Below are positions 46,336 through 64,000 of a stretch of DNA of 64,000 nucleotides, in pieces. Source of the stretch: Clostridiales bacterium. GTDB taxonomy: Bacteria > Bacillota > Clostridia > Christensenellales > Pumilibacteraceae. The notes under the pieces are model-generated. The model was not told where the DNA came from. It did not search any database and saw nothing but the letters and a program-made list of their open reading frames with translations. The translations under genes were made by a program, and so were the position numbers. The stretch's first letter is position 1, and every line of letters starts with the position of its first letter. The stretch lies in contig JAFLVC010000003.1 of assembly GCA_022508505.1 (NCBI GenBank), forward strand, positions 93,910 to 157,909, in the 5' to 3' direction.

Positions 46336-46887
46336 TTGGAAGACAGCAAAATTATAGAGCTATATTTTGAGCGATCCGAATCGGCAATTCGTGAAACCCA
46401 AAACAAGTACGGGCGATATTGCCATTATATTGCGTATCACATTCTGTATTCGGATTCCGATGCAGAAGAATGCGTCAACGATACGTATTACAATGTTTGG
46501 GACATTATACCGCCTAAGCGCCCGACGAATTTTCGGGCTTTTATAGGCGCGATAACCCGAAACCTTGCGCTGAATCGGTATGACTACAATAATGCTCAAA
46601 AGAGGTCGGAGAAGCTCCAAGTCGCACTTGATGAACTTAACGAGTGCGCGCAGGGAAAGCAATTTGCCGTCGAAGAAGAATTAATATTGAAAAAACTGAT
46701 TAACGGCTTTCTCGACACGTTGCCTAAACGTGATAGAATTATCTTTTTACAGAGATATTGGTATTTTTGTTCCGTCAAAGAGATTGCTTCAAACATCGGC
46801 ATTAAAGAAAACAACGTTAAAGTGATATTGTATCGTGTGCGCGAGCAGTTCAAAAATCATCTCGAGAAGGAAGGAGTTTTGATATGA
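46336..46887 (+). CDS. ECF-type RNA polymerase sigma factor
   Basis: Sigma2 SDAEECVNDTYYNVWDIIPPKRPTNFRAFIGAITRNLALNRY; sigma4 LDTLPKRDRIIFLQRYWYFCSVKEIASNIGIKENNVKVILYRVRE. Confidence 0.9.
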   Translation: MEDSKIIELYFERSESAIRETQNKYGRYCHYIAYHILYSDSDAEECVNDTYYNVWDIIPPKRPTNFRAFIGAITRNLALNRYDYNNAQKRSEKLQVALDELNECAQGKQFAVEEELILKKLINGFLDTLPKRDRIIFLQRYWYFCSVKEIASNIGIKENNVKVILYRVREQFKNHLEKEGVLI

Positions 46888-47603
46888 TTAAACAAAACAT
46901 AATAGGCATGCTTTCGTTGGTAGATGAGAATTTTGTCGGCGAGGCGGATCCTACGCAAAGACCGAAACAAAGGTTGGGGTGGAAGAAGCTCACGGCGATA
47001 GCCGCAAGCGTTTGCGTGTTCGTTTCGGCATTGGCTTTAAGCATCATTATTCCTACAATGAATAACGACAAGCCGTCGGCTGGGAAAACGGGCCTCGAAT
47101 GGGGATTTGTGGTTTCAAGCGATGATTTACCGAGCGAATGGTGTGCGTATAAAAGCGACACCGACACATTTGATATATATGACGTGACGTTAGAGTTTTA
47201 TTTCGGCACGATTATGCCGAGGGATGTAACCGACGAACATATCGATAACGAACTCGAAAACGGCAGTAATATTCCCGAATTCGATATTTACTTCGGCAAT
47301 AGCCACGAAGAGCCGTTATACACTGTAAGACACAGCACGGAGAACTTTATTTCGAAAGAGTACAGCTGCTATATCGAAGATTATTACAGTAAAGAGACTA
47401 AAATAGTATATAATCATTCGGAAAGAATAACCATTCCGCAAGAACTGTTTACAAGTCGGCAGGGCGTGATCAGCTTTTGCATAGCCGGAGTGAACATAAA
47501 CGAGTACGAACCCAAATATAAAGTTTTCACTCGCGTTCTGTTAAACTATGATATTGTTAACGGAAAAGTAGTGTTGTCCGCATGGGACGGACGCAGGGAA
47601 TGA
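46884..47603 (+). CDS. Single-TM protein, candidate anti-sigma factor/sensor partner of the upstream sigma factor
   Basis: Overlaps the sigma gene; short cytoplasmic N-terminus, TM LTAIAASVCVFVSALALSIIIP, extracytoplasmic C-terminal domain. Confidence 0.6.
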   Translation: MIKQNIIGMLSLVDENFVGEADPTQRPKQRLGWKKLTAIAASVCVFVSALALSIIIPTMNNDKPSAGKTGLEWGFVVSSDDLPSEWCAYKSDTDTFDIYDVTLEFYFGTIMPRDVTDEHIDNELENGSNIPEFDIYFGNSHEEPLYTVRHSTENFISKEYSCYIEDYYSKETKIVYNHSERITIPQELFTSRQGVISFCIAGVNINEYEPKYKVFTRVLLNYDIVNGKVVLSAWDGRRE

Positions 47604-47686: not shown

Positions 47687-48775
47687 TTAATTATCTTCTT
47701 CGCCGCCGTTATCGTCGGGCTTGTCGCGGAGCTTTATCTTGTTTACGACGTCGCGGCGGATGTCGTCGCTCATTGCGGCGTAGTGCTTGCGCGTCGTGTT
47801 GACGTCTTTGTGGCCGAGGACGTCTGCGACGACGAATATGTCGTGCGTTTCGTGATAGAGGTTTGTGCCGTACGTGCTTCTCAGCTTGTGCGGCGTTATC
47901 TTTTTAAACGGCGCGATGATCTTTGCGTACTTTTTTACCATGAGCTGAACGGCGCGCGGCGTTATTCTTCCGCCTTTTATCGAAAGGAACAGCGCGTCGT
48001 TATCTGTTATGCGCTTTCCGAACTCGGTTTGTTCGAGCATTTGATCGTCCAGCCAAGCGATATATCGGCGCAGCGCGTCTGCGACCTCTTCCGAAAAGTA
48101 CAGTATCGACGTGCTGCCGCCCTTGCGCGTTACGACAAAGCTGTTGTCCTCGAAGTTGATATCCTTGCGGTTGAGCCCGACGCACTCGCTTATACGAATG
48201 CCCGTGCCGAGAAAGAGCGACAGCATTGCCTCGTCGCGAACGGCGGTGAGTGCGTGAAAGCTCTTTTGCCGACCTTCGAGGTTTTCGCCGTTTTCGGCCT
48301 CGTCGAGAATGTCGACCACCTCGTTGACGTCCAGTCGAATTATCGGCTTTGCGTGTTTTTTGGGCGTGTCGACCTTGGTCATTACGTTGTTAGCTATCTT
48401 TTCTTTTTTGTAGAAATACTTAAAAAGCGCGCGGAGCGTCGACACCTTGCGCTCTTTTGCCTGTTCCTTGCACGAATGCTTTACGCCGTCAAGTCGGTAC
48501 GACGACAGGTAGTCGATGTACTCCTCTATGTCTGTGGGCGAGAGCGCGTCGATGTCTTGTATCGTCAGCTCGACGATTTGCTTTTCGGGATATTTGCGCT
48601 TTACGAGAAAATCACAAAAGACTCGAATATCGCGTAGATATCCGAGCCTTGTAAGCGGAGTCGTGCGCATCGATATTCCGACGTTGAACTCCCTTGCAAA
48701 GCGGGGAAGTGCGTCGAGCAGATTGTCGATTGCGTCGAGGTTTTTCTCGTTTCTTTGGTCGAAGTATGAACTCAT
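47687..48775 (-). CDS. Tyrosine recombinase (XerC/D/S-like)
   Basis: Complete R-K-HxxR-H-Y set: GTGIRISECVGL, VTRKGG, HKLRSTYGTNLY, LGHKDVNTTRKHYAA. Confidence 0.9.
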   Translation of the reverse strand: MSSYFDQRNEKNLDAIDNLLDALPRFAREFNVGISMRTTPLTRLGYLRDIRVFCDFLVKRKYPEKQIVELTIQDIDALSPTDIEEYIDYLSSYRLDGVKHSCKEQAKERKVSTLRALFKYFYKKEKIANNVMTKVDTPKKHAKPIIRLDVNEVVDILDEAENGENLEGRQKSFHALTAVRDEAMLSLFLGTGIRISECVGLNRKDINFEDNSFVVTRKGGSTSILYFSEEVADALRRYIAWLDDQMLEQTEFGKRITDNDALFLSIKGGRITPRAVQLMVKKYAKIIAPFKKITPHKLRSTYGTNLYHETHDIFVVADVLGHKDVNTTRKHYAAMSDDIRRDVVNKIKLRDKPDDNGGEEDN

Positions 48776-48784
48776 GAAAGCGAT

Positions 48785-50404
48785 TTACTCTACCGCGTAG
48801 TGCTCCGATTTGAGGAGCGTCAAGAATATCGCGCCGCTGATCGGAATGAACAGCGAGTATGCGAGCGGAATGACTAATGACGGAATGTACGTCTCCGAAA
48901 ATCCGACCGGCATGCCCCAAATGAGGTTGAAGCAGTAGATAATCACTGCAGTTTGGAGCATTATGACTGTTCGAATAATCATTGTAAAGCGCGGATTGAT
49001 GTTTATTCGCTTCTTTTTGTCGGGGTTTCCTGCAAAAACTATTACCGCAACTATAAACATTATGATAGGCAAAAGTCCGGCAAACACGTACAGGACGTAA
49101 TCGTATTGCATTCTCATATTAAGTCCGACGTAGAACGTCAAAAACAGCACGAGCCCGATTAGGAACATGACGGCGCACATCACAGTGTAGTGCGTCATCA
49201 TCAAACGGTTGCTGTAATAGTAGTATTTTTGCGTGTATTGCTTGGCGGAATCGTTGTGCGAGCGGACGGTAACGTCGTTGCCGAGCTCCGCGACCGCATT
49301 TTTAACGTCGTCGAAACGCCTGACCTTTGTGCCGCGCTCCTGCGTGGCGCTTGCCGCTTGTTCTTTTGCGACGCTGTCCTCGATCTTCTCGTTTTCTGCC
49401 TCGCAGCGGCTGACGAGATCGCCGAGTATGTCCTTGTATTCGCGCTTTGCCGCGCTCTCTTCCTGCACGGGAAGTTTGTCGGCGTACGGCTGAACGTCAT
49501 GCGGCTTTTCGCTTACGGGCGCGGGGGGAGCGGTGGGTTCCGTTTTTTGCAGGGCTTTTGTAGTGCTCTCCGCTTCGCTCGTCTCCGAAACGCGCGCGTC
49601 CGCATAGCTGCGGCTGCCGGTGTACGTCGACGCGTAAAGCTCTTCTATCAAAGAGTGAGGGTCGGCTGTCTTTCCGCTTACGTCGTCCGAAGGTTCTTCG
49701 TAAATCTCGTAGCCTTTGTCCTCGACTTGCGGCTCTTCCGAATTGTCTTCCTGCTTTTCCTCGGGCTTAGGCTCGTCGAGAATGTCGAAAATGCTATGCT
49801 GAACAAAGCTGTCGCGCGGCTTCTCCTCTTCTTCCAAAGCGGGCTCGGGCGCAGCTTCAGCGGGCTCGGGCGCAGCTTCATTTTGCTCTTCTTCGGTGCT
49901 GTGTATGTATTCGGTCTCATCGTAGGCGGGGGGAATATATTCCACCGTCGCCGCTTGCTTTTCTTCCTTCTTTCCCGCCTTTTCGCGCGGGCGGGAAGGG
50001 CGTGACGGACGGCGTTTTGGTATCTCGTACTCGTCGTCCTCTACGTCCGAAAAATCGTCTGCCTGATAAATGGGCTCGTCGTTGGTGATGAGCTCGCCGA
50101 ACAGGTCGCGGGAGCGCTCCCATTCGTTTTTGTACGACACGAAAACGTCTCTGCCGCTTTCGGTGAGCGTGTAATACTTGCGCCTGCCGCCGTTGCTCTC
50201 GGAAGCGTCCCAGTACGAGGCGACGAAGCCCTGCTTTTCGAGCCGTTTAAGGCAAGCGTAAAGCGTGGGCTGTTTGATTTCCCACTGACCGCCGCTCCTG
50301 GCGTTGATCTGTTTTATCATGTCGTAGCCGTATCTGTCGCCCTCGTACAGGACTTTGAGAATTACGGTATCGACATTACCGCGAATCAAATCGCTTTCTG
50401 CCAT
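48785..50404 (-). CDS. PadR-family transcriptional regulator fused via an acidic linker to a C-terminal four-TM membrane domain
   Basis: N-terminal GNVDTVILKVLYEGDRYGYDMIKQINARSGGQWEIKQPTLYACLKRLEKQGFVASYWDASESNGGRRKYYTLTESG; four C-terminal hydrophobic helices. Confidence 0.87.
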   Translation of the reverse strand: MAESDLIRGNVDTVILKVLYEGDRYGYDMIKQINARSGGQWEIKQPTLYACLKRLEKQGFVASYWDASESNGGRRKYYTLTESGRDVFVSYKNEWERSRDLFGELITNDEPIYQADDFSDVEDDEYEIPKRRPSRPSRPREKAGKKEEKQAATVEYIPPAYDETEYIHSTEEEQNEAAPEPAEAAPEPALEEEEKPRDSFVQHSIFDILDEPKPEEKQEDNSEEPQVEDKGYEIYEEPSDDVSGKTADPHSLIEELYASTYTGSRSYADARVSETSEAESTTKALQKTEPTAPPAPVSEKPHDVQPYADKLPVQEESAAKREYKDILGDLVSRCEAENEKIEDSVAKEQAASATQERGTKVRRFDDVKNAVAELGNDVTVRSHNDSAKQYTQKYYYYSNRLMMTHYTVMCAVMFLIGLVLFLTFYVGLNMRMQYDYVLYVFAGLLPIIMFIVAVIVFAGNPDKKKRININPRFTMIIRTVIMLQTAVIIYCFNLIWGMPVGFSETYIPSLVIPLAYSLFIPISGAIFLTLLKSEHYAVE

Positions 50405-50609: not shown

Positions 50610-50671
50610 TTGTGAACAATATGTTAACATTATCTTGTATAGGCATATAATTATGAACAAATTGTTAACAA
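50610..50671 (+). promoter_or_regulatory. Four-box operator array and promoter of giant surface gene 1
   Basis: TTGTGAACAA (50610-50619), ATGTTAACAT (50621-50630), TTATGAACAA (50651-50660), TTGTTAACAA (50662-50671); -35 TTAACA 50624-50629, 16 bp, -10 TATAAT 50646-50651. Confidence 0.7.
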
Positions 50672-50720
50672 CCAATCAAAATCATAAATCGAGCGCAGCT
50701 TGCGCAGGGAAGGTGGCTAT

Positions 50721-53700
50721 ATGAAAAACGGCACCCGAGCTCAAATAACGAGAGCAAAGAAAATACTTATACTCATTGTCAGCGGTATCATTGCGGTAGC
50801 GCTGGGATTGACATGCGGACTGTGCTTCGGCATCGGCTCGTCCAATAGAACAGGCACGACGAGCGGAGTGGAAAGCGGCGAGGTAAGCCACTCTGCAACT
50901 AAAGCGCTGACTAGTGCCGGAACCTACAACTATACTACTGCAGGCTCGTTGATGAACAACGATTTAATCACCATGGCGTACTGCGGCGGTATTTATACAC
51001 TGAATTTGCCTAAGGGCACATACAAGTTCGAAGTATGGGGCGCGCGCGGCGGTCAGTACGTCGCAGGCGCGGGCACTCCGGGCTACGGCGGATATACGTA
51101 CGGTCAGATTGTGTTGTCCGGCGCTACTACTATTTACGTCGTTCCGGGCGGCATAGGCACGAACGGCGACACATCCAATAGCGTTAAAGCGGGCGGATAC
51201 AACGGCGGCGGCGCAGGCCGCTATTACGGATCGAGCGGCGGTGGCGCGACGCACATCGCGACGGCGTCGGGACTTCTTTCCTCACTTAGCGGCAACACTG
51301 CGGCGGTACTCATGGTAGCGGGCGGTGGCGGCGGAACGCAAAAGTATAACGGCGGTCACGGCGGCGGCGGAAACAGCAACGGAGGAACTACCAACGGCGG
51401 CTGCGGTTCGGGCGGTTGCGGCGGCGGACTTTCCGGCCCGCACGGCAATCCGTGGCAAAGCCACAACGTTGCCACCAATGCCGGCTCGTTCGGGCAGGGC
51501 GGCGGTGTCGGTGCGGGTAGCGACGGCTTCTATGCAGGTGCAGGCGGCGGCGGCTACTGGGGCGGCTGCGGCGCTACGAGCGACGTTTCGGTTGTCGACG
51601 ACAAGGGCGGCGGCGGCGGTAGCGGCTACGTCAATACTTCCAAATTTACGAACTACGGCGGCAGCGGTACAGACGGAAATAACAACGGCGCAGGCAGGGC
51701 GCAGATCACGGCGATCCAAGTAAACCAACCGCCGGTACAGCAGAGCTACAGCATTACAGGGCAGAACATAGGCACGCTGAGCACGGCGAAAGCTGTGTAC
51801 TCGTACAACCTGGCGCAGGACACGGACTACGCGAACCAGAGCGGCGCGAACGCCAACAGCGTGTACTTTGTAAACGGCACGACGACGACGGATTTGTCGA
51901 GCAGCACGGCGCAGGACACGGGCCTGTATTTGGACGCGGCATGCACAATTCCTGCGGGGACGTATATAACATATAAGTTCCAGAGCAACCAGCAGTTCAA
52001 TATAACGGGGTACAAGAAGCAGCCGCGAGCGGGCGTGTCTGGAGTAAGCACGAACAACCAATTGAAGGTGTACGTAGGCATACGCGACATGTTCGGTGGG
52101 AACCCGTCGACGTCGACTAACGCGCGAGGCGTGTACTCGTTTACCATAACGTTCAACGGGTACAGTGGGACGCATAAAGAGAACACGAGCGGGACGCTGG
52201 TGAACGGGAACAAGTACGCATACAGGTACGGGAAGTCAACGAGCACCGATCCGAGCATAGTACCCGGCGGAGGAGTGTACTCACCGAAAGCGGTGGGGAC
52301 GTGGTCGCTGTGCGTGCAGCAGCCCATACAAAAGAACACGAGCGTTACAATAACAGCTGCGGAGCTGATGGGTATGACGGCGCCGGCGAGCACAACGGCT
52401 GCGTCGTATAACGCATTGTTCCAAGCGGTGCTGGTGCCGAGCGGAGCGGTGTCGGGATTGTACGCATACAGCGGGAGCACGGTGACGTTTAACAGCTCGG
52501 TAACGGGCTATACGTCAATAACAATAACGGCGACGGGCTCGTCGCCGCAGTGGCAGAACGCGACGTTCACACTGTACATGGTAGAGATAAACGCGTCGAC
52601 CGGCACGAGAATAGAGCCAATAGGCATTACGTACGATATACACGCCATAGACGTCAACTTCAGGGTAGACAACACGCGTCCGACGCTTAGGAGCAGTCAG
52701 AACAATGTGGTAGACGTACCCGTAGGCGGGAGCGTAGACGTCCAGCTGAATAAGTACTTCAGCGACATCGACGGCGAAATAACGGCGTCGACGCACAGGA
52801 TACTCGGCGTGGAAGTGCCGCAGTACGAGTTTGTGGAGCTGGATAAGTACGGCGGCGTAGTGTCGACGTACAATGCGAGCGGCGCGGCGGCGGGCTCGTC
52901 GTATTACAATGTGGCCGGAGGAACGCTTAGCGACTCGCTGACGAGCGGCAAGAGCACGAAGGAAACCGGATTCAACGTGAGAATAGCGCAGCCGAGCATA
53001 ACTGAGGACGCGTTCGTAAGCTACACGATCAAGGCGTACGACACGCTGACGCTGACGGGCATAAGGTCGAGCTATTCGCAGTACCAAAGCACGCGGGCGG
53101 CGCAAACGGCGTATACCGGCGGAAACACGTCGGAGCCTACGGCGTCCGGCAGCGTAACAAACCCCGGGCACTTCTACCTGTTAATGCACATACAGGACAA
53201 TAACGACACAGCGGACGGCGGAATATGGCTGCCCATAGCGGTGAGAGTAGGGTACGCGGACGGGCGCATGGACGGCGTGACGCCTGTCAATACGGGCACG
53301 ACGGCGGGCGCGGTGAGCGGACAGGGCATGCTGTCGAGCATGCCGCGAGCGGTAGGAAACGTCGGCGACGAGTTCTATTTTGTGCCGATGGGCGTCAACA
53401 TAGGCAATACTGAATACCCCATAGGCAAGGTAACGGACGCGAGCGGGAACGTCCTGAGTGCGGGAGTAGGCAAGGACAAGGTACAGGCGCTGGCGCTCGA
53501 CGGCGACAACTATACGACGTGGAATAACGACACGCGTGAAGCGGGGTTAGGCGGCTGGAGTAAGAAGCTCAACGAGCTATTGACAATAACGACGCCGGAA
53601 ACGTTCAAGGTCTCGGAGACGGAGAGAGCGAAGGACTATGCGAAGATAGAGCGCATAAGCGTATATATCCCGAAGAGCTATTTCGGCGGCAGAGTGGCGG

Positions 53701-56700
53701 CCGTTACGAGCGGAGGCTCGTCGCGCGACGCGGCAACGGGCGTCAATACGGTCGTAGTGCGCGACGGCGGTATAGCTAACGACGATACGGAATACTACGT
53801 GATCGACGGACTGAAGGTGACGCTGCTGTCGGCAACGATGGGCAGATACTTCTATGTGAATGTGGGCATAAGCGACAGCAACCAGAAAGCGGTGAACGGC
53901 GGCGTCAATATAGCTATAAACGTAGCTAATACCGACCCCGACGTAATCGACGAGGGAGATATAGCGAAGTACACGGGGCACAGCGACAATCCGTTCACGT
54001 ACAAGTACGAAGCAGGGCAGATAACGGTGTCGTACAGAGTGCCGATGCGCTCGACGTTCTTCATTACGCCGTACGACCTAATAAGCGACGAGAACATGCT
54101 CGACGGCGGTGCGGTGTACCCTGCGGGCGGATTCACGCTGAACGGGCTTAGCGGAAAATACGTCAACGGCGTATTCACCGAAAGAGCGGAAGCCGGTAAC
54201 GGCGAGACGCAGATAAACGCGCTGTTCAACACGGGAAAATACGGCAGGGGCAGCGAGACGTACGTGACGCAGCTGACGAACATGCTGGAAAACCTGACAA
54301 GGACGAGGCAGACGGTAGGCAGTGTCGCTACGGGATACGCGTTCGGCACGGCTGGAGTACGGGACACGAACGTACTTAACGACAGGCTGTTCTTTGTGCG
54401 GACGAGCGATACGACGAGCGATCCGTACACGTTCAACCCGACGACTAAGGACTATGTGTACACGACGACAAATACGGCGGACTACGTCGGAATAGCGGCA
54501 GGCAATACGGTCAACATCAACGGCGTGGAGTACAGCGTCGACTTTTTGATGTTCACAGCGGAGACGCGGACGGCGACGAACGCGGTAATTAACCTTACGG
54601 TGCGCGACAGGTACGGCGCGGTAGCCATACCCGTAAGGATCGAGATAGCGATCATCAACACGGCGCCGCAGCAGATCGAGATAGAAAAGGTACCGGAGCT
54701 CGCAGTCAAGGCGGTTGACGGAGATAACGGGCCTGTGTACGAGACGAGCTTAGTGGTGACGCCGGACGGCGTGATGACGGACGCGGACGGCGACAGGCTG
54801 GTGTTTGTGCAGTCGCGCGGCATACTTGTGGCGCGGGGCTTAGAGATAGCGAAGATAGAGAACGTTAGCAGTTTGATGTTCGACGGGTTCGGCAGCGCGG
54901 GGAATCACCCGGAGTATGCCGAGTACCTGAGCGACAAGCACGGCAATCTATTGACGGATTACTATTTGACGGCGCGCATGGACTCGACGAGCGAGTTCAC
55001 GGTGACGGCGCTGGGCTCGACGAAGAACATCGAGGAAGGGGTGTATGTATACTTCTTCGTAACGGACAGCAGGGGCGGAACGACGCTCGGGTATCTGCCC
55101 GTAGAAGTAGTGAACACCCGTCCGCACGAGAACACGAGCGACGTCGACGGATTTTCCGGCGAGGACAGACTGTGGTCGCTGGAGTCTGCGAGGATAGCGG
55201 ACACGTACAGGAGCAGGTACATAGTCGGATCGGAAGCGGCGCGAGAGCAGTTAAAGGAAAAAGAGAAAGCGACGGACGCGGACATCAAGCTCATAGCAAT
55301 GGACGCGGACGCATTGCACGGCAAGTACGGCGTAATGCTGTCGCAGCGCGGCGCGACTGCGTCGGTGTATTTCAACTACGACGAGCGGTACAACGCCCCG
55401 CCGTACGGTAACGCGTACGAAGTGGCGGTGCCGAACGTACTGCGGTCGGTAAGCGGCGGGTTCGACGACACGAAGCCGGCGGCAGTAGTGGTGTGCGCGG
55501 CGCCAAATGACGGCAAGAGCACGTACATGCTGCCCGAGTACGTGAGCGTACAGGTCATGTTCTATGTGAACGGGAAGTGGTACGAGCGCAGCGTGCTTAT
55601 TGGCGAGTTGAGCAAGGACAGCGGCGAGGTCAAGCACGAGGACGTGTTTGACGGAGAAGGTCGGTTTGTAATAAACGACTGGGCGGTGAAGGTAGCGACG
55701 GAGCAGGCGTTCACCGGCTACAGACTGCAATTGACGTTCTCCGTAAGGGACGACGTACTGTACGGCGGCGACACGGCGGACAAGGAGACGGCGTACAACA
55801 GCAACAGGAACGACAAGAAAGGCGAAAAGGTAGCGGGCAGGCTGGACGTAGGTCCGGTGTACATGTACATTTCGGGCACGGGCATACGCACGAAGGACGA
55901 GTTCGGCGTGTACGACAATAACTACGTCGTGGACTACGAGCCGAAGGACGGGACGTCTAAGTCGTACTTAGTTACAAAGACGGGCGAAACGGTTTCGGCG
56001 GTTGAGTACAGCGCGGCGGCCGCGGCGAGCGCGAAGGGCAAGTTCGAGTATTTGTCGACAATAACGGTGCCTGCGTCGTCGGACGGAAGTAAGGCATACC
56101 CGACGGTGTACGTACCGATGAGCTATTTCGGTCAGAAGCAAGCGCTTGTGGCGCCGTCCACGCAGGACAAGACGGTGTCGTACCAAGACACGTTTGTCGG
56201 GTACGACATGCGCAAGTCGAACGGCGACGACTCGGCGTACGACATCGGGCATATAGACAATATAGCGTCGGCGATCTCGCTGTACGACGGGAATACGACC
56301 TGGCGCGGAATGGACTTGGCGGACAATCCGTACTTAGAGATAGCGTCGGTCAACTACATGAGCGGAATGAACGGAGCGGCGATGTTCGGCGGCGCGTACA
56401 GCAGTATGTATTACAACACGCAGCTCGCGGTGTCGACGGCCGACCAGGACTACTCGGGCGTAAGCGAGGACGAGTTCATAGCGGGCACCGAGAAGCAGCT
56501 CATATACTTAAAGGACCAAAAGGAAAAGCTGTTGGAGCACAACTTCGGCTTGTCGTTCAAGAAGAAGAACATGCGAACTGGCAGCGTAAATCTGCAATTG
56601 ACGATCAATCTGGCGCTGTCCGAGGTCAAGCGCGGCAGCGGCAACGAGATAACCGGGATGACGACGGCGTGCGAGAGCGCGAGCGACGCGCGCACGGTAA

Positions 56701-59700
56701 CAGTGTTCATCAGGATAGAGAACACGCCTATTGATCTTGTAACGGGCAAGGTGTCGAACAGCGACAAGTACTTGCTCGGCTATGACGACACGTACCACGT
56801 CGACTTCTCGCTTAATACGAACGCGGCCATTGAGTTCGAGCTGTTGCGGTCGGACGGCAATGACGCGGGTAACGCGCAAAGGAACAAGATATATTACACG
56901 GACAACGACTACTCGTCGAATAAGTACCGCGACGCGGCGTACTTCTCGATCGAGTCGGTGAACGGGCTGTCGGGCGCGAACAACAAGCGTCCGTCGGACA
57001 ATAACGGCGACGCATACACGAACACAACGCTCGCAAAGACGGGCGAGGTCATGCGCGCGCAGAACTCGATGCGGCACTACTACGGCGTGGCGAGCATAGC
57101 GGACACGACGAGCGACGCGTACACGGCGAACGGCGGGAAGTATTCGTACAGCTCGTACTTCAATGTGACGACGTCGGAGAGCGGGAAAGTGCTCAACATA
57201 AGAGCGTCGAGAAAGACGTACATCAACGAGTCGGCGCTTGAGGGAATAGTTAAAACCGAGTTCGTGGGGAAGGCGGAATACAGCGAGCTGTTCGGCGGGT
57301 TTAACTGGAACGCCGGCAAGACGTACGGCGGACTGTCGTACAAGCAGCTGAGGAAGGTGTACGAGACCCGCGGACTGAAGGTAGTGTTCGGCGGAACGGT
57401 AGCCGACGAGAACACGGCCGTACCCGACGACGAGACGCTGAGCGCGTACTATCCGCTCAACGTCATAGTTTACGACAACTGCGGAGCGGGCTGGAGCGAC
57501 GCGTCGTACGTGGCGATGGAGTTCAGGATAACAATAATAAACACGGCGCCTACGATCAATACGGAAAGCCTTAGCTACAACGACGCGAGGTCGCGTTGGG
57601 AAAAGCACACAAAGCTTGCGGTGGGCAGCACGATGTACCTCGAGCTTGAGAAGTACATAAGCGACCCCGACATATTCACGATCAACTCTCAGCTTGCGAC
57701 GGTCAACCAGTTCAACTCGAGGGCGACGGGCATAGACAAAGAGACGGGCGACTACTTGGAATCGCTGTTCTCGTACAACTACACGAAGTACGCGAGCGAC
57801 GAAGCGGCGCAGAGCGCCCTGCTCAGCAACAGAGCGGGTCTGTCCAAACAGGGCTATACGGGCGCGGACGTAATAATGTACATGGAAGTCGAGGGCAACG
57901 CGGAGCTCAGCACGGAAACGGTACCTGCGAACAACAGGCTGTGGTTCAGGGTTAACAGGCGCACGTCGGACGACGACGGCAACATCAGGGACTCGTTCGA
58001 GTTCACGCTCAGCTTCCGCGACAACCACCACACCGAGGGGACGCCGTCGGAAACGCTGCCCATAACGTTCGTCATCGAGATAGACAACCAAGCCCCGGTA
58101 ATAGACACGGCGGTAACGAAGGTGACGATGCACTCGGGCGACAGTCTCGTACTGCTGCCTGCGTACTACGACACGTTCATAGGCGGAACGGAGTATCTGA
58201 CGGATCACAAGACGTTCGACAAGACCGAGCACGGCTCGGACTACGCGCTGCCGCGCGAGGGCTCGACGGCGTACTTAAAATCCAAGACGTACAACAATTA
58301 CTACAACGTACGTCTGACCGAGGGCGCGGACTGGACGTACCACGAACTGACGCGCGCGGCGTGCAAGGACTTCAAGACGGACACGTCGAACGGCAACGGC
58401 AACCAGAGCCTCGGGTTCTTGGGTGTGGCGAGCGACGACGCACCGTGGCGGCTTAGGTTTGAGACCAAGAGCTACAACAGCTACAGCTTCATCACGGTGA
58501 CGCAGCAGAACCTCGTGTATCCCGAGCTGAGAACGGGCACGCCGAGCGAACGGCTTCCGATGGCGCTTTTAATAGAGGCGCGGAACGCATGCACGCAGCA
58601 GACGGTCACGTTCGAAATAACGGACGGCGAGGGCGGACGCGTGACGTACACGCTCGAGTTCACCATCATAAGCGCGCCGCCGCGCCCGCTCGATCCCAAT
58701 GTGGGCGGCGAGAACGCGAGGCTTGAAGCGGCGCATCTCGAGGGCATAGAGAACACCGGCTCGGGTGCGAACAAATACCTCAACAACGGCACGTACAACA
58801 TGTACATAATACCGTCGGGCGACGCGAAGGGCGTAGCCGTCGAACTCGAGACGTTCGGCAAAAAGACGGCGTACCGCGAGACGGAGATCAAGCTCAACAA
58901 CGTGGCGATCGATCCGGACAGTGCGACGGCGACGCTGTCGCTGTACGACGGCGGGCGATTCCGCGTAGACAACCAAGACCTCATAGAGGACGGGCAGGGG
59001 CATTACACGATCCCGAACGCGCCCAATTACTTCTATATTACAAAGCGCGACAACACGGCGTTCACGGTACACGCGACGGGGTACAACCCGAGCAAGGCGT
59101 ACGAAACGCTCACGTTCAGAGTGGGCGATCCCGGCAACGACGTGTATGCCAACTCAATAGAGATAACCATTCGCGTATACACAATATACTCGGACATGGA
59201 AAACCCGACGGTAGGCAAGATGTCGCTCGGCAAGTACGAGGACGAGTACCTCGCGGGCAGTAACGTGTTCAGCGTCAAGCCGTACGACGAGTATCTCGGC
59301 ACGGGCGCGTACGCGGGCAATCCCGAGTATGCGGCGTCTGCGGGCGTACCGTCGACGTACAAGTACATCTACTTCGGCGGCGACGAGGGCAACGACGCGA
59401 CGCTTACGGACGGGAAAGCGGAGTCGCCGATCATCGACAGGGACGTCAGTGTTTCGGGCACGCAGTCGTACGCGGCGTACGTGTACGCGTTCATGGAGAA
59501 CGGCGAGGCGCTGGATAAGACCGAGATAGGCAAGCTGCTCGAGCGCAACGGCAACCTGTTCTCAATCCGCGCGGACAAAAAGACGGCTGTAGAGAACTAT
59601 CTCATCGGCGGAATAAACGCGTCGGGGAACAGCGTAACGCCCAACCGCACGGCGCTTGAAAACGTCAGCAAGTATTTTGGATTCACGGTAGCCGCGGACG

Positions 59701-62450
59701 GCACGAGCATTGCGTTCACGCCCAAGACGGCGACGCTCGGCACTAAGATCATGCTGTACGTCGACGTGCAAAAGATAATAGGCACGCGCGACGCGACGCG
59801 CATAGACGAAGCGGTGTCGGCCGGCACGCTGTTCGCGCTGGAGGTCGAGGACTCGGCGCCGCGCGGCGTCAAGCTCGACGGCAAGGACTATGCGCGCGAG
59901 TTCGAGGGCGGCAAGGGCGACACGGTCAGCTACCGCATATTCGGCGGCACGCGCGGCGAAGCGCTGTTCGAGGACTCGGACGTCGACGACGAGATCGAGG
60001 TAAAGATAGCCAACGACACGAGCGACAGCTGGTACAGGAACGACGCATTGAAAAAGGCGCTTGACGAGGACGAGAACCTCGATTGGGCGGTTAATGCGGC
60101 AATGGGCAAGGCGCGGGCAATAGACGTCGAGGTCATTGACGGGTACGTCAAGATAACCATAAACCGCCGCATGGATAAGCGAAATGCCGACGGCACGTAT
60201 GCGAAGAGCGTGACGTTCCCGTTGGTGCTGACGTGCGAGGACAGAGCGGGCAAGACCGCACAGGTGACGATCAAGATAACGGTAAACAACTCGGGCATGA
60301 CGGCGAAGGACGAGTACAGCGCCATTGACGAAAAGACGGGCGCGGGGTACGCGTTCTCGAAGAACACCGAATCCCAGTATACGAACGAGTACAACCTCAA
60401 CGTCAACGTGTTAAAGGGCGTAGACCTCGAGATAGACATAACGGACTTCCTCGTAGACACGGACTACGTCAAGGGCGCGAACGTCGATTCGTACAGGTTC
60501 GTGCCGCGCAGCGGGCGGTCGAGCAGCTTCGAGGACCTGTTGTCCGAGCCCAAAAAGGCTATATACTACACAGACGCGATGTTGGGCAGGCCGCAAGACC
60601 TCGCTACGGTAACGCCTATATATACGGAGTACGGCGGCGATCTCAGCTACACCAAGATAAGCGTGAACGCGGAGTCGTCGGTGAGGAACAGCAAGGGCTC
60701 GCTGCGCATACACATCATAGACCGTGCGGGCGACGCTACGTCGGACAGCGAGGGAATATACATAACGCTCAACATAACGGTCATCAACACCGCGCCCGAA
60801 GTAATACCCGGCAAGAACGGCAGCGAGATAGACATACTCGGCTCGGACAAAGCGACGACGGGCGAGACGTTCTACCTAAAGGATTTCGTGCGCGACGACA
60901 ACGAGTCCGACATAGTGGACATGGCAAACGCGCCGATTGACCAGCGCGGAACGCAGACGTGGCTGAGGATTTACTCGGTACGGTACCTGTACTATACCTC
61001 AATCAACGCGACGTCGAGCGCGAACGTGCCGAGCGGCGGCGCGGATTACATAGACGACTCGTCGCTCATATTCACGGTTTCGTACTCGGAGCAGGACACC
61101 GGCAACGAATACGGTCAGGCGTTCAAGATCCGGCCTAACATCGGGTTCTACGGCAGCGGCGAGTTTGTCGTAACGGTGTACGACGGCAACATCAACGACT
61201 ATCCCGATTCGGAGTGGGTAGAGTTCACGGTCAAGGTCAACGTCGTGTACAATCCCGAGGACATAGACAGCATGGGCATCGATCCGATGGCGCGCGGCAA
61301 GCGCAAGACCGTCGACATCGAGGCGCTTGTAAACGACATAGACAACAAGTTCGAGCCCTCCGGCAAGGACAGCGATAACGGCATCGAAGAGGTCGATCCC
61401 GAAGCGCCCGGTTCGGAGCGCACATTCAATCCCGCGTCCTGGTACACGCTCGTATCCATAATTCCGACAACGGACGCTACAGCCTACGTCGAAGCGAAGA
61501 AGGTCGAGGACGGGCTGTGGGAGCTCCACGCGCTGCAGATAACCGACAAGACGGGCGTGCGCATAAGAGTAGTGTACGCACTCAAAGCGGACGTCGAGAA
61601 AGCGGGCATGCGCGCGGCAGACGACGAGGGCGAGCAGTACACTACGTACGAGTCGTACTTCGATCTTGTAATAAAGAACAACGAGCGCCCGTCGCTCATA
61701 TACAACAAGATGACGTTCTCGCGTTACGCCGAAGAGGGCGCAATACCCGACATGTTCAGGCTTGACGCGAACAACTCGGTGTACATCGCGGCAGACCAGC
61801 TGTTCGACGACCCTGAGGACGACGAGCTGAAGCTCATATCCGTAAGGTCGAACAAGGAATCGCTGGTATCCGCCAAGCTTTCCAAAGAGAAAGACAAGAT
61901 AGTCCTGAAGTTCAACGCTCGAGGCGACGCGAAGATAACGGTTACGCTGTCCGACGAGAGCGGCGCCAACTACACGTACGACGAGATAACGGTCATCAAT
62001 ACCGACCTGCCCGAGCCCGATTTATGGACGCGGTTCCTCGCGAGCTTAGAGTCCAACAAGGTCATGTGGGCGCTCATATTCGGCAGTGCCGCATTGCTTC
62101 TCATCGTGCTCATCATCATCGTTGTGATAATAAAGAAGCGCAAGCGCGTCAGGGAAGAGCTCGAAGCGCTCCTCGTCTCCGAAATGGAGATCGAAGAACA
62201 AATGCTCCGCCTCTCCGGCGGCCCGTCGCCTACAGGCTACCAGAGCTACGGCTACCTCCAGCCCCCTACGGCGCCTCAGCCCGACCCGAGCACTATGCTC
62301 GGCGCAGGCTCTTCCCAGCCTCAGCAGCAACAGCTCGGCCTCGCCGCTCCGCCCCCTCAAGGCACGCAGACGGAAGTAGGCAACCAACAACCGCCCGTAA
62401 TGCCTAATAATATCGGCAATATCGGCAACGGTCAAGACGACAACTTCTAA
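50721..62450 (+). CDS. Giant (3,909 aa) cell-surface protein: N-terminal TM, glycine-rich ALK/LTK-like domain, about a dozen Ig/cadherin-like repeats, C-terminal TM and Pro/Gln-rich cytoplasmic tail
   Basis: Single uninterrupted frame; GTYKFEVWGARGG...GGGATHIA; recurring boundaries (INTAPQQ, INTAPTI, DNQAPVI, INTAPEV); TM VMWALIFGSAALLLIVLIIIVVIIKKRKR. ATG 50721 has an RBS-like gggaaggtgg. Confidence 0.87.
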   Translation: MKNGTRAQITRAKKILILIVSGIIAVALGLTCGLCFGIGSSNRTGTTSGVESGEVSHSATKALTSAGTYNYTTAGSLMNNDLITMAYCGGIYTLNLPKGTYKFEVWGARGGQYVAGAGTPGYGGYTYGQIVLSGATTIYVVPGGIGTNGDTSNSVKAGGYNGGGAGRYYGSSGGGATHIATASGLLSSLSGNTAAVLMVAGGGGGTQKYNGGHGGGGNSNGGTTNGGCGSGGCGGGLSGPHGNPWQSHNVATNAGSFGQGGGVGAGSDGFYAGAGGGGYWGGCGATSDVSVVDDKGGGGGSGYVNTSKFTNYGGSGTDGNNNGAGRAQITAIQVNQPPVQQSYSITGQNIGTLSTAKAVYSYNLAQDTDYANQSGANANSVYFVNGTTTTDLSSSTAQDTGLYLDAACTIPAGTYITYKFQSNQQFNITGYKKQPRAGVSGVSTNNQLKVYVGIRDMFGGNPSTSTNARGVYSFTITFNGYSGTHKENTSGTLVNGNKYAYRYGKSTSTDPSIVPGGGVYSPKAVGTWSLCVQQPIQKNTSVTITAAELMGMTAPASTTAASYNALFQAVLVPSGAVSGLYAYSGSTVTFNSSVTGYTSITITATGSSPQWQNATFTLYMVEINASTGTRIEPIGITYDIHAIDVNFRVDNTRPTLRSSQNNVVDVPVGGSVDVQLNKYFSDIDGEITASTHRILGVEVPQYEFVELDKYGGVVSTYNASGAAAGSSYYNVAGGTLSDSLTSGKSTKETGFNVRIAQPSITEDAFVSYTIKAYDTLTLTGIRSSYSQYQSTRAAQTAYTGGNTSEPTASGSVTNPGHFYLLMHIQDNNDTADGGIWLPIAVRVGYADGRMDGVTPVNTGTTAGAVSGQGMLSSMPRAVGNVGDEFYFVPMGVNIGNTEYPIGKVTDASGNVLSAGVGKDKVQALALDGDNYTTWNNDTREAGLGGWSKKLNELLTITTPETFKVSETERAKDYAKIERISVYIPKSYFGGRVAAVTSGGSSRDAATGVNTVVVRDGGIANDDTEYYVIDGLKVTLLSATMGRYFYVNVGISDSNQKAVNGGVNIAINVANTDPDVIDEGDIAKYTGHSDNPFTYKYEAGQITVSYRVPMRSTFFITPYDLISDENMLDGGAVYPAGGFTLNGLSGKYVNGVFTERAEAGNGETQINALFNTGKYGRGSETYVTQLTNMLENLTRTRQTVGSVATGYAFGTAGVRDTNVLNDRLFFVRTSDTTSDPYTFNPTTKDYVYTTTNTADYVGIAAGNTVNINGVEYSVDFLMFTAETRTATNAVINLTVRDRYGAVAIPVRIEIAIINTAPQQIEIEKVPELAVKAVDGDNGPVYETSLVVTPDGVMTDADGDRLVFVQSRGILVARGLEIAKIENVSSLMFDGFGSAGNHPEYAEYLSDKHGNLLTDYYLTARMDSTSEFTVTALGSTKNIEEGVYVYFFVTDSRGGTTLGYLPVEVVNTRPHENTSDVDGFSGEDRLWSLESARIADTYRSRYIVGSEAAREQLKEKEKATDADIKLIAMDADALHGKYGVMLSQRGATASVYFNYDERYNAPPYGNAYEVAVPNVLRSVSGGFDDTKPAAVVVCAAPNDGKSTYMLPEYVSVQVMFYVNGKWYERSVLIGELSKDSGEVKHEDVFDGEGRFVINDWAVKVATEQAFTGYRLQLTFSVRDDVLYGGDTADKETAYNSNRNDKKGEKVAGRLDVGPVYMYISGTGIRTKDEFGVYDNNYVVDYEPKDGTSKSYLVTKTGETVSAVEYSAAAAASAKGKFEYLSTITVPASSDGSKAYPTVYVPMSYFGQKQALVAPSTQDKTVSYQDTFVGYDMRKSNGDDSAYDIGHIDNIASAISLYDGNTTWRGMDLADNPYLEIASVNYMSGMNGAAMFGGAYSSMYYNTQLAVSTADQDYSGVSEDEFIAGTEKQLIYLKDQKEKLLEHNFGLSFKKKNMRTGSVNLQLTINLALSEVKRGSGNEITGMTTACESASDARTVTVFIRIENTPIDLVTGKVSNSDKYLLGYDDTYHVDFSLNTNAAIEFELLRSDGNDAGNAQRNKIYYTDNDYSSNKYRDAAYFSIESVNGLSGANNKRPSDNNGDAYTNTTLAKTGEVMRAQNSMRHYYGVASIADTTSDAYTANGGKYSYSSYFNVTTSESGKVLNIRASRKTYINESALEGIVKTEFVGKAEYSELFGGFNWNAGKTYGGLSYKQLRKVYETRGLKVVFGGTVADENTAVPDDETLSAYYPLNVIVYDNCGAGWSDASYVAMEFRITIINTAPTINTESLSYNDARSRWEKHTKLAVGSTMYLELEKYISDPDIFTINSQLATVNQFNSRATGIDKETGDYLESLFSYNYTKYASDEAAQSALLSNRAGLSKQGYTGADVIMYMEVEGNAELSTETVPANNRLWFRVNRRTSDDDGNIRDSFEFTLSFRDNHHTEGTPSETLPITFVIEIDNQAPVIDTAVTKVTMHSGDSLVLLPAYYDTFIGGTEYLTDHKTFDKTEHGSDYALPREGSTAYLKSKTYNNYYNVRLTEGADWTYHELTRAACKDFKTDTSNGNGNQSLGFLGVASDDAPWRLRFETKSYNSYSFITVTQQNLVYPELRTGTPSERLPMALLIEARNACTQQTVTFEITDGEGGRVTYTLEFTIISAPPRPLDPNVGGENARLEAAHLEGIENTGSGANKYLNNGTYNMYIIPSGDAKGVAVELETFGKKTAYRETEIKLNNVAIDPDSATATLSLYDGGRFRVDNQDLIEDGQGHYTIPNAPNYFYITKRDNTAFTVHATGYNPSKAYETLTFRVGDPGNDVYANSIEITIRVYTIYSDMENPTVGKMSLGKYEDEYLAGSNVFSVKPYDEYLGTGAYAGNPEYAASAGVPSTYKYIYFGGDEGNDATLTDGKAESPIIDRDVSVSGTQSYAAYVYAFMENGEALDKTEIGKLLERNGNLFSIRADKKTAVENYLIGGINASGNSVTPNRTALENVSKYFGFTVAADGTSIAFTPKTATLGTKIMLYVDVQKIIGTRDATRIDEAVSAGTLFALEVEDSAPRGVKLDGKDYAREFEGGKGDTVSYRIFGGTRGEALFEDSDVDDEIEVKIANDTSDSWYRNDALKKALDEDENLDWAVNAAMGKARAIDVEVIDGYVKITINRRMDKRNADGTYAKSVTFPLVLTCEDRAGKTAQVTIKITVNNSGMTAKDEYSAIDEKTGAGYAFSKNTESQYTNEYNLNVNVLKGVDLEIDITDFLVDTDYVKGANVDSYRFVPRSGRSSSFEDLLSEPKKAIYYTDAMLGRPQDLATVTPIYTEYGGDLSYTKISVNAESSVRNSKGSLRIHIIDRAGDATSDSEGIYITLNITVINTAPEVIPGKNGSEIDILGSDKATTGETFYLKDFVRDDNESDIVDMANAPIDQRGTQTWLRIYSVRYLYYTSINATSSANVPSGGADYIDDSSLIFTVSYSEQDTGNEYGQAFKIRPNIGFYGSGEFVVTVYDGNINDYPDSEWVEFTVKVNVVYNPEDIDSMGIDPMARGKRKTVDIEALVNDIDNKFEPSGKDSDNGIEEVDPEAPGSERTFNPASWYTLVSIIPTTDATAYVEAKKVEDGLWELHALQITDKTGVRIRVVYALKADVEKAGMRAADDEGEQYTTYESYFDLVIKNNERPSLIYNKMTFSRYAEEGAIPDMFRLDANNSVYIAADQLFDDPEDDELKLISVRSNKESLVSAKLSKEKDKIVLKFNARGDAKITVTLSDESGANYTYDEITVINTDLPEPDLWTRFLASLESNKVMWALIFGSAALLLIVLIIIVVIIKKRKRVREELEALLVSEMEIEEQMLRLSGGPSPTGYQSYGYLQPPTAPQPDPSTMLGAGSSQPQQQQLGLAAPPPQGTQTEVGNQQPPVMPNNIGNIGNGQDDNF

Positions 62451-62475
62451 ACGTCGATAGTACAGCTTTATATCT

Positions 62476-62510
62476 AAAACGGCTCGGTAATATCCGAGCC
62501 GTTTTGTTTT
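62476..62510 (+). terminator. Terminator of giant surface gene 1
   Basis: AAAACGGCTCGG-taatat-CCGAGCCGTTTT GTTTT. Confidence 0.88.
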
Positions 62511-62592
62511 GTGATACATTTCATTTGACAAAGCGACATTATTCCGCATAAATGAGTTAAATTGACTATTTTTACAATAAGTTATTGACAAA

Positions 62593-62654
62593 TTGTGAAC
62601 AATATGTTAACATTATTCTGTATATGTATATAAATGTGAACAAATTGTTAACAA
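62593..62654 (+). promoter_or_regulatory. Four-box operator array and promoter of giant surface gene 2
   Basis: TTGTGAACAA (62593-62602), ATGTTAACAT (62604-62613), ATGTGAACAA (62634-62643), TTGTTAACAA (62645-62654); -35 TTAACA 62607-62612, 16 bp, -10 TATAAA 62629-62634. Confidence 0.7.
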
Positions 62655-62703
62655 AAATGCATAAAAAGACATCGAGCGCAGCTTGCGCAGGGAAGGTGGC
62701 TAT

Positions 62704-64000
62704 ATGAAAAACGGCACCCGAGCTCAAATAACGAGAGCAAAGAGAATACTTATACTCATTGTCAGCGGTATCATTGCGGTAGCGCTGGGATTGACATGCG
62801 GACTGTGCTTCGGCATCGGCTCGTCCAATAGAACAGGCACGACGAGCGGAGTGGAAAGCGGCGAGGTCACTCATTCGGCGAGCAAGACCTTAACGAGCGC
62901 GGGCACGTATAACTATTCCGCGGCGGGCTCACTTATCAATAATGATACAATAACAATGCAGTATTGCGGCGGCGTGTACACCATAGTCCTGCCCAAAGGA
63001 ACGTACAAGTTCGAGGTTTGGGGTGCACAGGGCGGAAATGCTGCAAATGCCGCATATGCCGGCGGCTACGGCGGCAAGGGCGGCTACGGCGTCGGCGGTT
63101 ATGTAATAACCGCCGCAAGCGCAACTGTATATGTAGTCGTCGGACAGCAAGGTAAGTCAAACGGCTCATTAGGTATCAAGTACGGCGCGGCCGGAGGCTT
63201 CGGCGGCGGCGGCGGTGGTGCACATCCGTGGGGCAGCGGCAACTCGTCAGGTGGGGCCGGCGGAGGTGGACTGTCCGGATTTTTCAAAGCGACGTCGCCG
63301 TATGCGGGCAACGAGCTTCTCATCGCCGGCGCAGGCGGTGGCGGCGGCGGCTCGGCATTTAATGACGGCAGCGGTCACGGTAGAGGAACCGACGGCGGCT
63401 GGGGCGGCGGCACAAACGGCGGAGCCAGTCAACATACTTTATCACAGGGTGTATCGGTGTCCCACAAAACTTCGGGACCGGCAGCGACAGGTGCGACGCA
63501 GACTGCTGCGGGAACCGCAGGCGGTAGCGGCGGAACCGGCGGCAGGCTTTTCGGCGGTTACGGCTACGGCACAAAAAACGGAAATCCAGGCAACGGCACG
63601 ACGCTCGCGGGCGGTGAAGAGCTTACAACGGCCCCCTCCGGCAGTTCTGCCGGTGGCGGCGGCGGTGGTGGATCCGGATACTGGGGCGGCTCGGGTTCGG
63701 GCAACTACGGCATGGGCGGCAGCGGCGGCTCGGGCTGGAACGGCGGTGTAGTAACGACTACGGCGACCAACGGCGTCACCGTGACCAAAAACCTAATAGC
63801 GGGCAACGCTTCCATGCCTTCGCCTACGTCGGCGTCCAACGAAACAGGACACAGCGGCAACGGCTATGCCCGAATCACGGCGATCCAAGTAAACCAACCG
63901 CCGGTACAGCAGAGCTACAGCATTACAGGGCAGAACATAGGCACGCTGAGCACGGCGAAAGCTGTGTACTCGTACAACCTGGCGCAGGACACGGACTACG
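62704..64000 (+). CDS. Second giant surface protein paralog (5' part; runs off window)
   Basis: MKNGTRAQITRAKRILILIVSGIIAVALGLTCGLCFGIGSSNRTGTTSGVESGEV as in copy 1, a different Gly-rich domain, then ITAIQVNQPPVQQSYSITGQNIGTLSTAKAVYSYNLAQDTDY identical to copy 1; absent from the ORF track because it has no stop. Confidence 0.9.
   Translation, partial: MKNGTRAQITRAKRILILIVSGIIAVALGLTCGLCFGIGSSNRTGTTSGVESGEVTHSASKTLTSAGTYNYSAAGSLINNDTITMQYCGGVYTIVLPKGTYKFEVWGAQGGNAANAAYAGGYGGKGGYGVGGYVITAASATVYVVVGQQGKSNGSLGIKYGAAGGFGGGGGGAHPWGSGNSSGGAGGGGLSGFFKATSPYAGNELLIAGAGGGGGGSAFNDGSGHGRGTDGGWGGGTNGGASQHTLSQGVSVSHKTSGPAATGATQTAAGTAGGSGGTGGRLFGGYGYGTKNGNPGNGTTLAGGEELTTAPSGSSAGGGGGGGSGYWGGSGSGNYGMGGSGGSGWNGGVVTTTATNGVTVTKNLIAGNASMPSPTSASNETGHSGNGYARITAIQVNQPPVQQSYSITGQNIGTLSTAKAVYSYNLAQDTDY

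Follow-up and report, generated by a model that had tools for sequence, protein, structure and literature searches.

Tandem giant surface genes in an Anaerocaecibacter genome and evidence for copying of their 5' parts between loci

Locus organisation

The stretch of DNA analysed (the window) comprises 64,000 nucleotides of an Anaerocaecibacter genome, and it runs to the last base of contig C19 (157,909 bp). It contains a giant gene (gene 1) and the 5' part of a second (gene 2), preceded by genes for a tyrosine recombinase (xer) and a PadR-type regulator (padR). The features are:

47687..48775, minus strand: XerS-like tyrosine recombinase (PF00589, E=8.3e-30), a conserved neighbour of the type A locus
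48785..50404, minus strand: PadR-type regulator fused to a membrane domain (PF03551, E=8.7e-23)
50614..50629, plus strand: putative operator site 1 of gene 1 (GAACAAnnTGTTAACA)
50655..50670, plus strand: putative operator site 2 of gene 1, 41 bp from site 1 and just past the putative -10
50688..50884, plus strand: leader of gene 1 (5' untranslated end, RBS and N-terminal membrane/signal segment, codons 1-54), recognised by its match to gene 2
50721..62450, plus strand: gene 1, 3909 aa, type A by body trees, ATG at 50721
50885..51704, plus strand: glycine-rich head module of gene 1 (PF12810 over residues 92-331, E=1.2e-23)
51705..51831, plus strand: start of the gene 1 body, identical to the contig end (exact match)
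51705..62353, plus strand: body of gene 1, the sole other copy being C17:1-144
62061..62134, plus strand: C-terminal transmembrane segment of gene 1, followed by a Pro/Gln-rich tail (from reading of the sequence)
62229..62353, plus strand: tail segment of gene 1 identical to the start of contig C17, the 3' end of gene 2 (exact match)
62597..62612, plus strand: putative operator site 1 of gene 2
62638..62653, plus strand: putative operator site 2 of gene 2
62671..62867, plus strand: leader of gene 2, near-identical to that of gene 1 (1 mismatch in 197 bp)
62704..64000, plus strand: gene 2, 5' part alone, 432 aa, ended by the contig end
62868..63873, plus strand: glycine-rich head module of gene 2 (PF12810 over residues 92-393, E=2.6e-21)
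63874..64000, plus strand: start of the gene 2 body, the same as that of gene 1 (exact match), cut at the assembler's k

The body of gene 1 has no Pfam match. Gene 2 presumably has a body of the same length and the same C-terminal membrane anchor; its known body sequence amounts to 127 bp at the start and approximately 144 bp at the end. The recombinase scores 184 bits with the XerS model, below the cut-off of 267. The PadR-membrane fusion is found beside type A genes within the genus and has related proteins in 15 of 16 genera; a role as dedicated regulator of the giant genes is unsupported, as its relatives are family-wide. Further upstream, at 46336-47603, a sigma-70-type factor is followed by a 239-aa protein which has no Pfam or NCBIfam match and is possibly its membrane anti-sigma partner.

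Promoter region and putative double operator

Each giant gene in the window is preceded by two copies of a 16-bp site. In gene 1, the last six bases of site 1 (50624-50629) fit a -35 hexamer, which is separated by a 16-bp spacer from a TATAAT at 50646-50651. Site 1 would thus lie over the likely -35 and site 2 past the likely -10, a layout as for a repressor. Throughout the assembled genome, matches to GAACAAnnTGTTAACA with at most one mismatch occur at giant-gene promoters only, paired and 41 bp apart (10 matches, including duplicated contig ends); at the same threshold there are none in the control. In relatives, the site is found in 43 of the 47 genes with enough upstream DNA; it is paired in 41, and in 35 the distance is exactly 41 bp. 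When two mismatches are allowed, there are three matches in 520 kb of the relatives' gene bodies. An operator unique to these genes provides a handle on their control.

Identity between the two genes

Genes 1 and 2 are almost identical on both sides of a strongly diverged module. As the preliminary description had it, the leaders (50688-50884 and 62671-62867) match over 197 bp with one mismatch, A/G at 50761, which turns a Lys codon into an Arg codon; the modules that follow are 820 bp (50885-51704) and 1006 bp (62868-63873) long and so differ by 186 bp (62 codons). The 127-bp match between 51705-51831 and 63874-64000 holds as an identity. It does not hold as a biological length: it is only a lower bound for the shared block, because the assembler cut it at a de Bruijn branch point. 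Chance would not remotely account for two such matches that keep both order and frame.

The preliminary description had also named smooth decay of identity along the genes, with no breaks at the module edges, as evidence against its reading; the alignment by position gives breaks and no smooth decay. In a codon alignment read in steps of 60 nt, identity runs from 53/54, 60/60 and 55/60 to 37/60 and down to 15/60, and past the module it is back at 51/51 and 60/60. Overall it is approximately 99% in the leader, 25-65% within the module and 100% from 51705; since it drops inside the module and is then full again, the breakpoints are real. The right one is sharp, as the 127-bp match has a leftward extension of zero. 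The promoters and C-terminal tails of the two genes are unlike, whereas the leader and the known body are identical.

Contig ends and the continuation of gene 2

Three other contig ends of this genome (C4_end, C10_end and C14_end) have exactly 127 bp in common, and further contig ends overlap by 121-126 bp. The assembler's k-mer length is very probably 127. A 4.5-kb contig, C17, opens with 125 bp identical to the gene 1 tail (62229-62353), then diverges and runs on into trkA and trkH. These two genes lie downstream of the type A giant gene in 10/10 relatives where they were found; G007_C98, which is absent from the trees, is placed as type A by its xer-padR neighbours. Since trkA and trkH follow type A genes, C17 is the 3' flank of the type A locus and carries the end of gene 2. 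The sequences fit a locus order of xer, padR, gene 1, gene 2, trkA, trkH.

The assembly holds no further copy of the body at 51705-62353 except C17:1-144, at 99%, and both ends of the body meet contig ends with an overlap of length k. Both body copies have probably been collapsed into this 10.6-kb segment; the bodies of genes 1 and 2 may then be fully identical, over up to 10.6 kb.

Collapse of this kind raises the question of whether the shared blocks and the tandem layout are themselves products of collapsed or misjoined repeats. The 127-bp block does stop where a contig stops, its length is the probable k, and several contigs break within the giant-gene family. However, the two leader copies are distinct: each has its own promoter, they differ by one mismatch, and their longest exact stretch (123 bp) is shorter than k. 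Synteny on both sides is consistent with one tandem locus, and the genus-wide pattern described below is independent of contig C19. Uncollapsed tandem pairs of giant genes with glycine-rich heads are also found intact in a second genus (G029 and G030), on contigs of 299 kb and 476 kb, where the heads are approximately 60-69% (G029) and 40-63% (G030) identical and the bodies mostly 20-40%. An assembly artefact is thus very unlikely. The tandem pairs of the second genus do not have the double operator.

Head modules and the origin of the gene 2 head

The head modules belong to the ALK/LTK-type glycine-rich domain family. They score 73-86 bits with PF12810 against a curated cut-off (gathering score) of 24.5, and the match spans profile positions 1-242 of 243. 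A search of PDB sequences with the head module gave no match, and a fold model of the gene 1 head built from four sequences only (mean pLDDT 41.9) is too poor to compare. The genome holds two further family members, c4 (3827 aa) and c10 (4138 aa); no giant genes were found in it beyond these and genes 1 and 2. With PF12810, the head of gene 1 scores 84.8 bits, that of gene 2 77.2 and that of c10 81.7.

The head of gene 2 does not resemble that of its neighbour most closely. Its amino acid identity is 0.80 to c4 and 0.81 to c10, against 0.44 to gene 1 and 0.46 to the best match in another species, and it shares a 68-bp exact DNA match with c10. The gene 1 head groups with the type A heads of two species and with two type C heads. 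Most simply read, gene 1 would carry a native type A head and gene 2 a head derived from type B or C. On its sequence, gene 2 is a product of copying: it combines the leader and body of gene 1 with a head from the B/C lineage of its own genome. This affinity of the head, set against a leader and body that are gene 1's, supports the earlier preference for gene conversion or cassette exchange over duplication and drift. The exchange would be old, or its donor unsampled, since no present donor exceeds 81% amino acid identity.

Two histories may be considered for the pair. The pattern suits established tandem paralogues in which similar parts have been homogenised and conversion has halted at the diverged head, since the two genes share leader and known body but not promoters or C-terminal tails. 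Alternatively, a duplicate may recently have received a new head; a single assembly is compatible with both histories.

Genus-wide comparison

Anaerocaecibacter is a gut genus of the Pumilibacteraceae, and the giant-gene family is present in 19 of the 20 genomes searched, commonly with three genes each. Trees were made from 48 genes of 18 further Anaerocaecibacter genomes plus the four here, with one assembly per species. By their bodies the genes fall cleanly into three orthologue clades, types A, B and C, with two type changes each for the body start and the body end. The leaders and heads behave differently. Their trees require 17 (leader) and 19 (head) type changes, not far from the shuffled-label means of 22.5; changes of genome label number 31 and 29, respectively, fewer than in every one of 300 shuffles (minimum 34). 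For 20/48 heads and 14/48 leaders the closest relative comes from the same genome; among body starts and C-termini this holds in only 1/44 and 0/32 cases, respectively. The module swapping that the preliminary description had suggested seeking in related genomes therefore appears as a genus-wide conflict of leader and head with body.

Pairwise identities agree with the trees. Between B and C genes, leader identity is 0.76 in the same genome and 0.43 in different genomes (p=0.0005), and head identity is 0.64 and 0.44 (p=0.0005); C-terminal identity is 0.25 in both cases (p=0.34). A same-genome excess exists in some body comparisons and is small, at most 0.018. The 5' segment is thus alike within genomes, as in concerted evolution, while the body follows orthology. 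Exact tracts shared by genes of one genome are confined to about -150 to +1200 relative to the ATG, a region that takes in promoter, leader and module; the exceptions are two 25-bp matches further in and the body of genes 1 and 2. In A. muris, the sole named species of the genus and, by its name, a mouse isolate, the B and C genes are identical over 221 bp (about -123 to +98), although their C-terminal bodies reach no more than 27% identity. The c4 and c10 genes are alike up to approximately alignment column 550 and then fall to 10-30%, which is another clear breakpoint. In the tandem pairs of the second genus, too, heads resemble each other more than bodies do. Exchange would be episodic, because among the close species G009, G011, G013 and G014 the B heads and the C heads mostly form separate groups.

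Recombination and alternative explanations

It is highly probable that the window holds a type A locus with tandem giant surface genes, whose 5' parts have repeatedly been copied between loci by homologous recombination. Under this reading, the pair would lie between xer-padR and trkA-trkH, and each protein would have an N-terminal membrane/signal segment, a PF12810 head, a body of approximately 3,450 residues and a C-terminal membrane anchor. The genus would have three such genes, A, B and C, at fixed genome places and with orthologous bodies that do not mix; promoter, leader and head would be copied from one locus of a genome to another. Exchange between loci is read here from the history of single assemblies per species. 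Its best-supported route is ectopic homologous recombination, probably RecA-type gene conversion, which is favoured because the Xer recombinase is family-wide, no reverse transcriptase was found and tract ends vary.

A dedicated shuffling system, either site-specific through the adjacent Xer or a diversity-generating retroelement, is very improbable. The position of the recombinase would suit such a role: it lies 1.9 kb ahead of gene 1 and, throughout the genus, next to type A genes. Yet it occurs in 52 of 59 family genomes and in 16/16 genera, including genera without a detected giant gene; in genus g6 it shows no linkage to the giant genes, and in G044 it is approximately 85 kb away from them. 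A fixed crossover site is also contradicted by the variable tract ends of A. muris and of c4/c10. A shufflon or invertible locus was rejected for the same reasons, the recombinase being untied to these genes outside the genus and the tract ends variable. A retroelement was rejected because a search of the genome for a reverse transcriptase (RVT_1) gave no match.

That one gene was simply duplicated in tandem and its head then drifted faster is extremely unlikely. Genes 1 and 2 are adjacent and of the same type, and the heads of all genes evolve fast. However, the gene 2 head is 80-81% identical to those of c4 and c10 and 44% to that of gene 1, and drift could not bring its DNA sequence closer to those of two other loci, as the exact match with c10 would require. 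Nor would a single duplication yield differing promoters and C-terminal tails around an identical leader and known body. The data support recombination, and plain duplication with drift is excluded by the tree conflict and the shared tracts. Least credible is shared constraint from common export or regulation, without recombination, as the source of 5' likeness within genomes: promoter boxes and the membrane segment are conserved genus-wide, but constraint should also act between species, whereas 5' ends resemble each other more within a genome than across genomes, and it sits badly with the 221 identical bases of A. muris B and C beside such dissimilar C-terminal bodies.

A fuller version is tentative and rather doubtful: that the whole 5' cassette, made up of double operator, promoter, export segment and ligand-binding head, is re-assorted among three fixed-stalk genes and that exchange is ongoing within species. 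If true, the cell would retain its stalks and their regulation and re-assort its binding heads.

Relation to known systems

The closest precedent is in Helicobacter pylori, where the outer-membrane adhesin paralogues babA/babB and homA/homB undergo intragenomic gene conversion (PMC3960876, PMC2795765). Both systems have paralogues at fixed loci, with one segment concerted within strains and another orthologous, and a variable segment beside or between homogenised ones. In H. pylori it is the 3' segment that evolves in concert, with variation in the middle, whereas in Anaerocaecibacter the promoter, leader and head would be exchanged and the long 3' body is orthologous. The Anaerocaecibacter genes also differ in their size (approximately 12 kb), in belonging to Clostridia and in their common dedicated double operator. 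Chimeras have been seen in H. pylori; those of Anaerocaecibacter are deduced from sequence.

A role of the head in binding, as an adhesin, would make new head combinations useful. It is suggested by the anatomy of the protein and by glycine-rich receptor-binding domains elsewhere, such as the gp38 tail-fibre adhesins of T-even phages, in which a glycine-rich sandwich bears loops that set specificity (PMC12892980). The heads would resemble gp38 in alternating glycine-rich motifs with variable loops and in being a putative terminal receptor-binding domain; gp38 is a phage protein, and it is set beside PF12810 by analogy only.

ALK and LTK are animal receptor kinases. The heads match the profile of their domain over its full length; unlike in ALK/LTK, the domain is N-terminal in a giant bacterial protein and there is no kinase. 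A literature search for Anaerocaecibacter, Pumilibacter and bacterial PF12810 found no study of these giant genes. With their fixed stalks and exchanged heads, these genes are a natural experiment on head binding and on the upkeep of head variety.

The 5' cassette also affects genome assembly. In relatives, 17 contig ends lie in the 5' cassette against nine in the far longer bodies, a count from which body-only contigs were left out, so that the true ratio is smaller. Copying of the cassette between genes would explain why assemblies of Anaerocaecibacter often break there, and giant genes are probably under-counted in metagenome-derived genomes. As a separate observation on the present assembly, the start of contig C14 (1-20) and the end of contig C15 read as Illumina adapter (AGATCGGAAG...), indicating that it contains untrimmed adapters.
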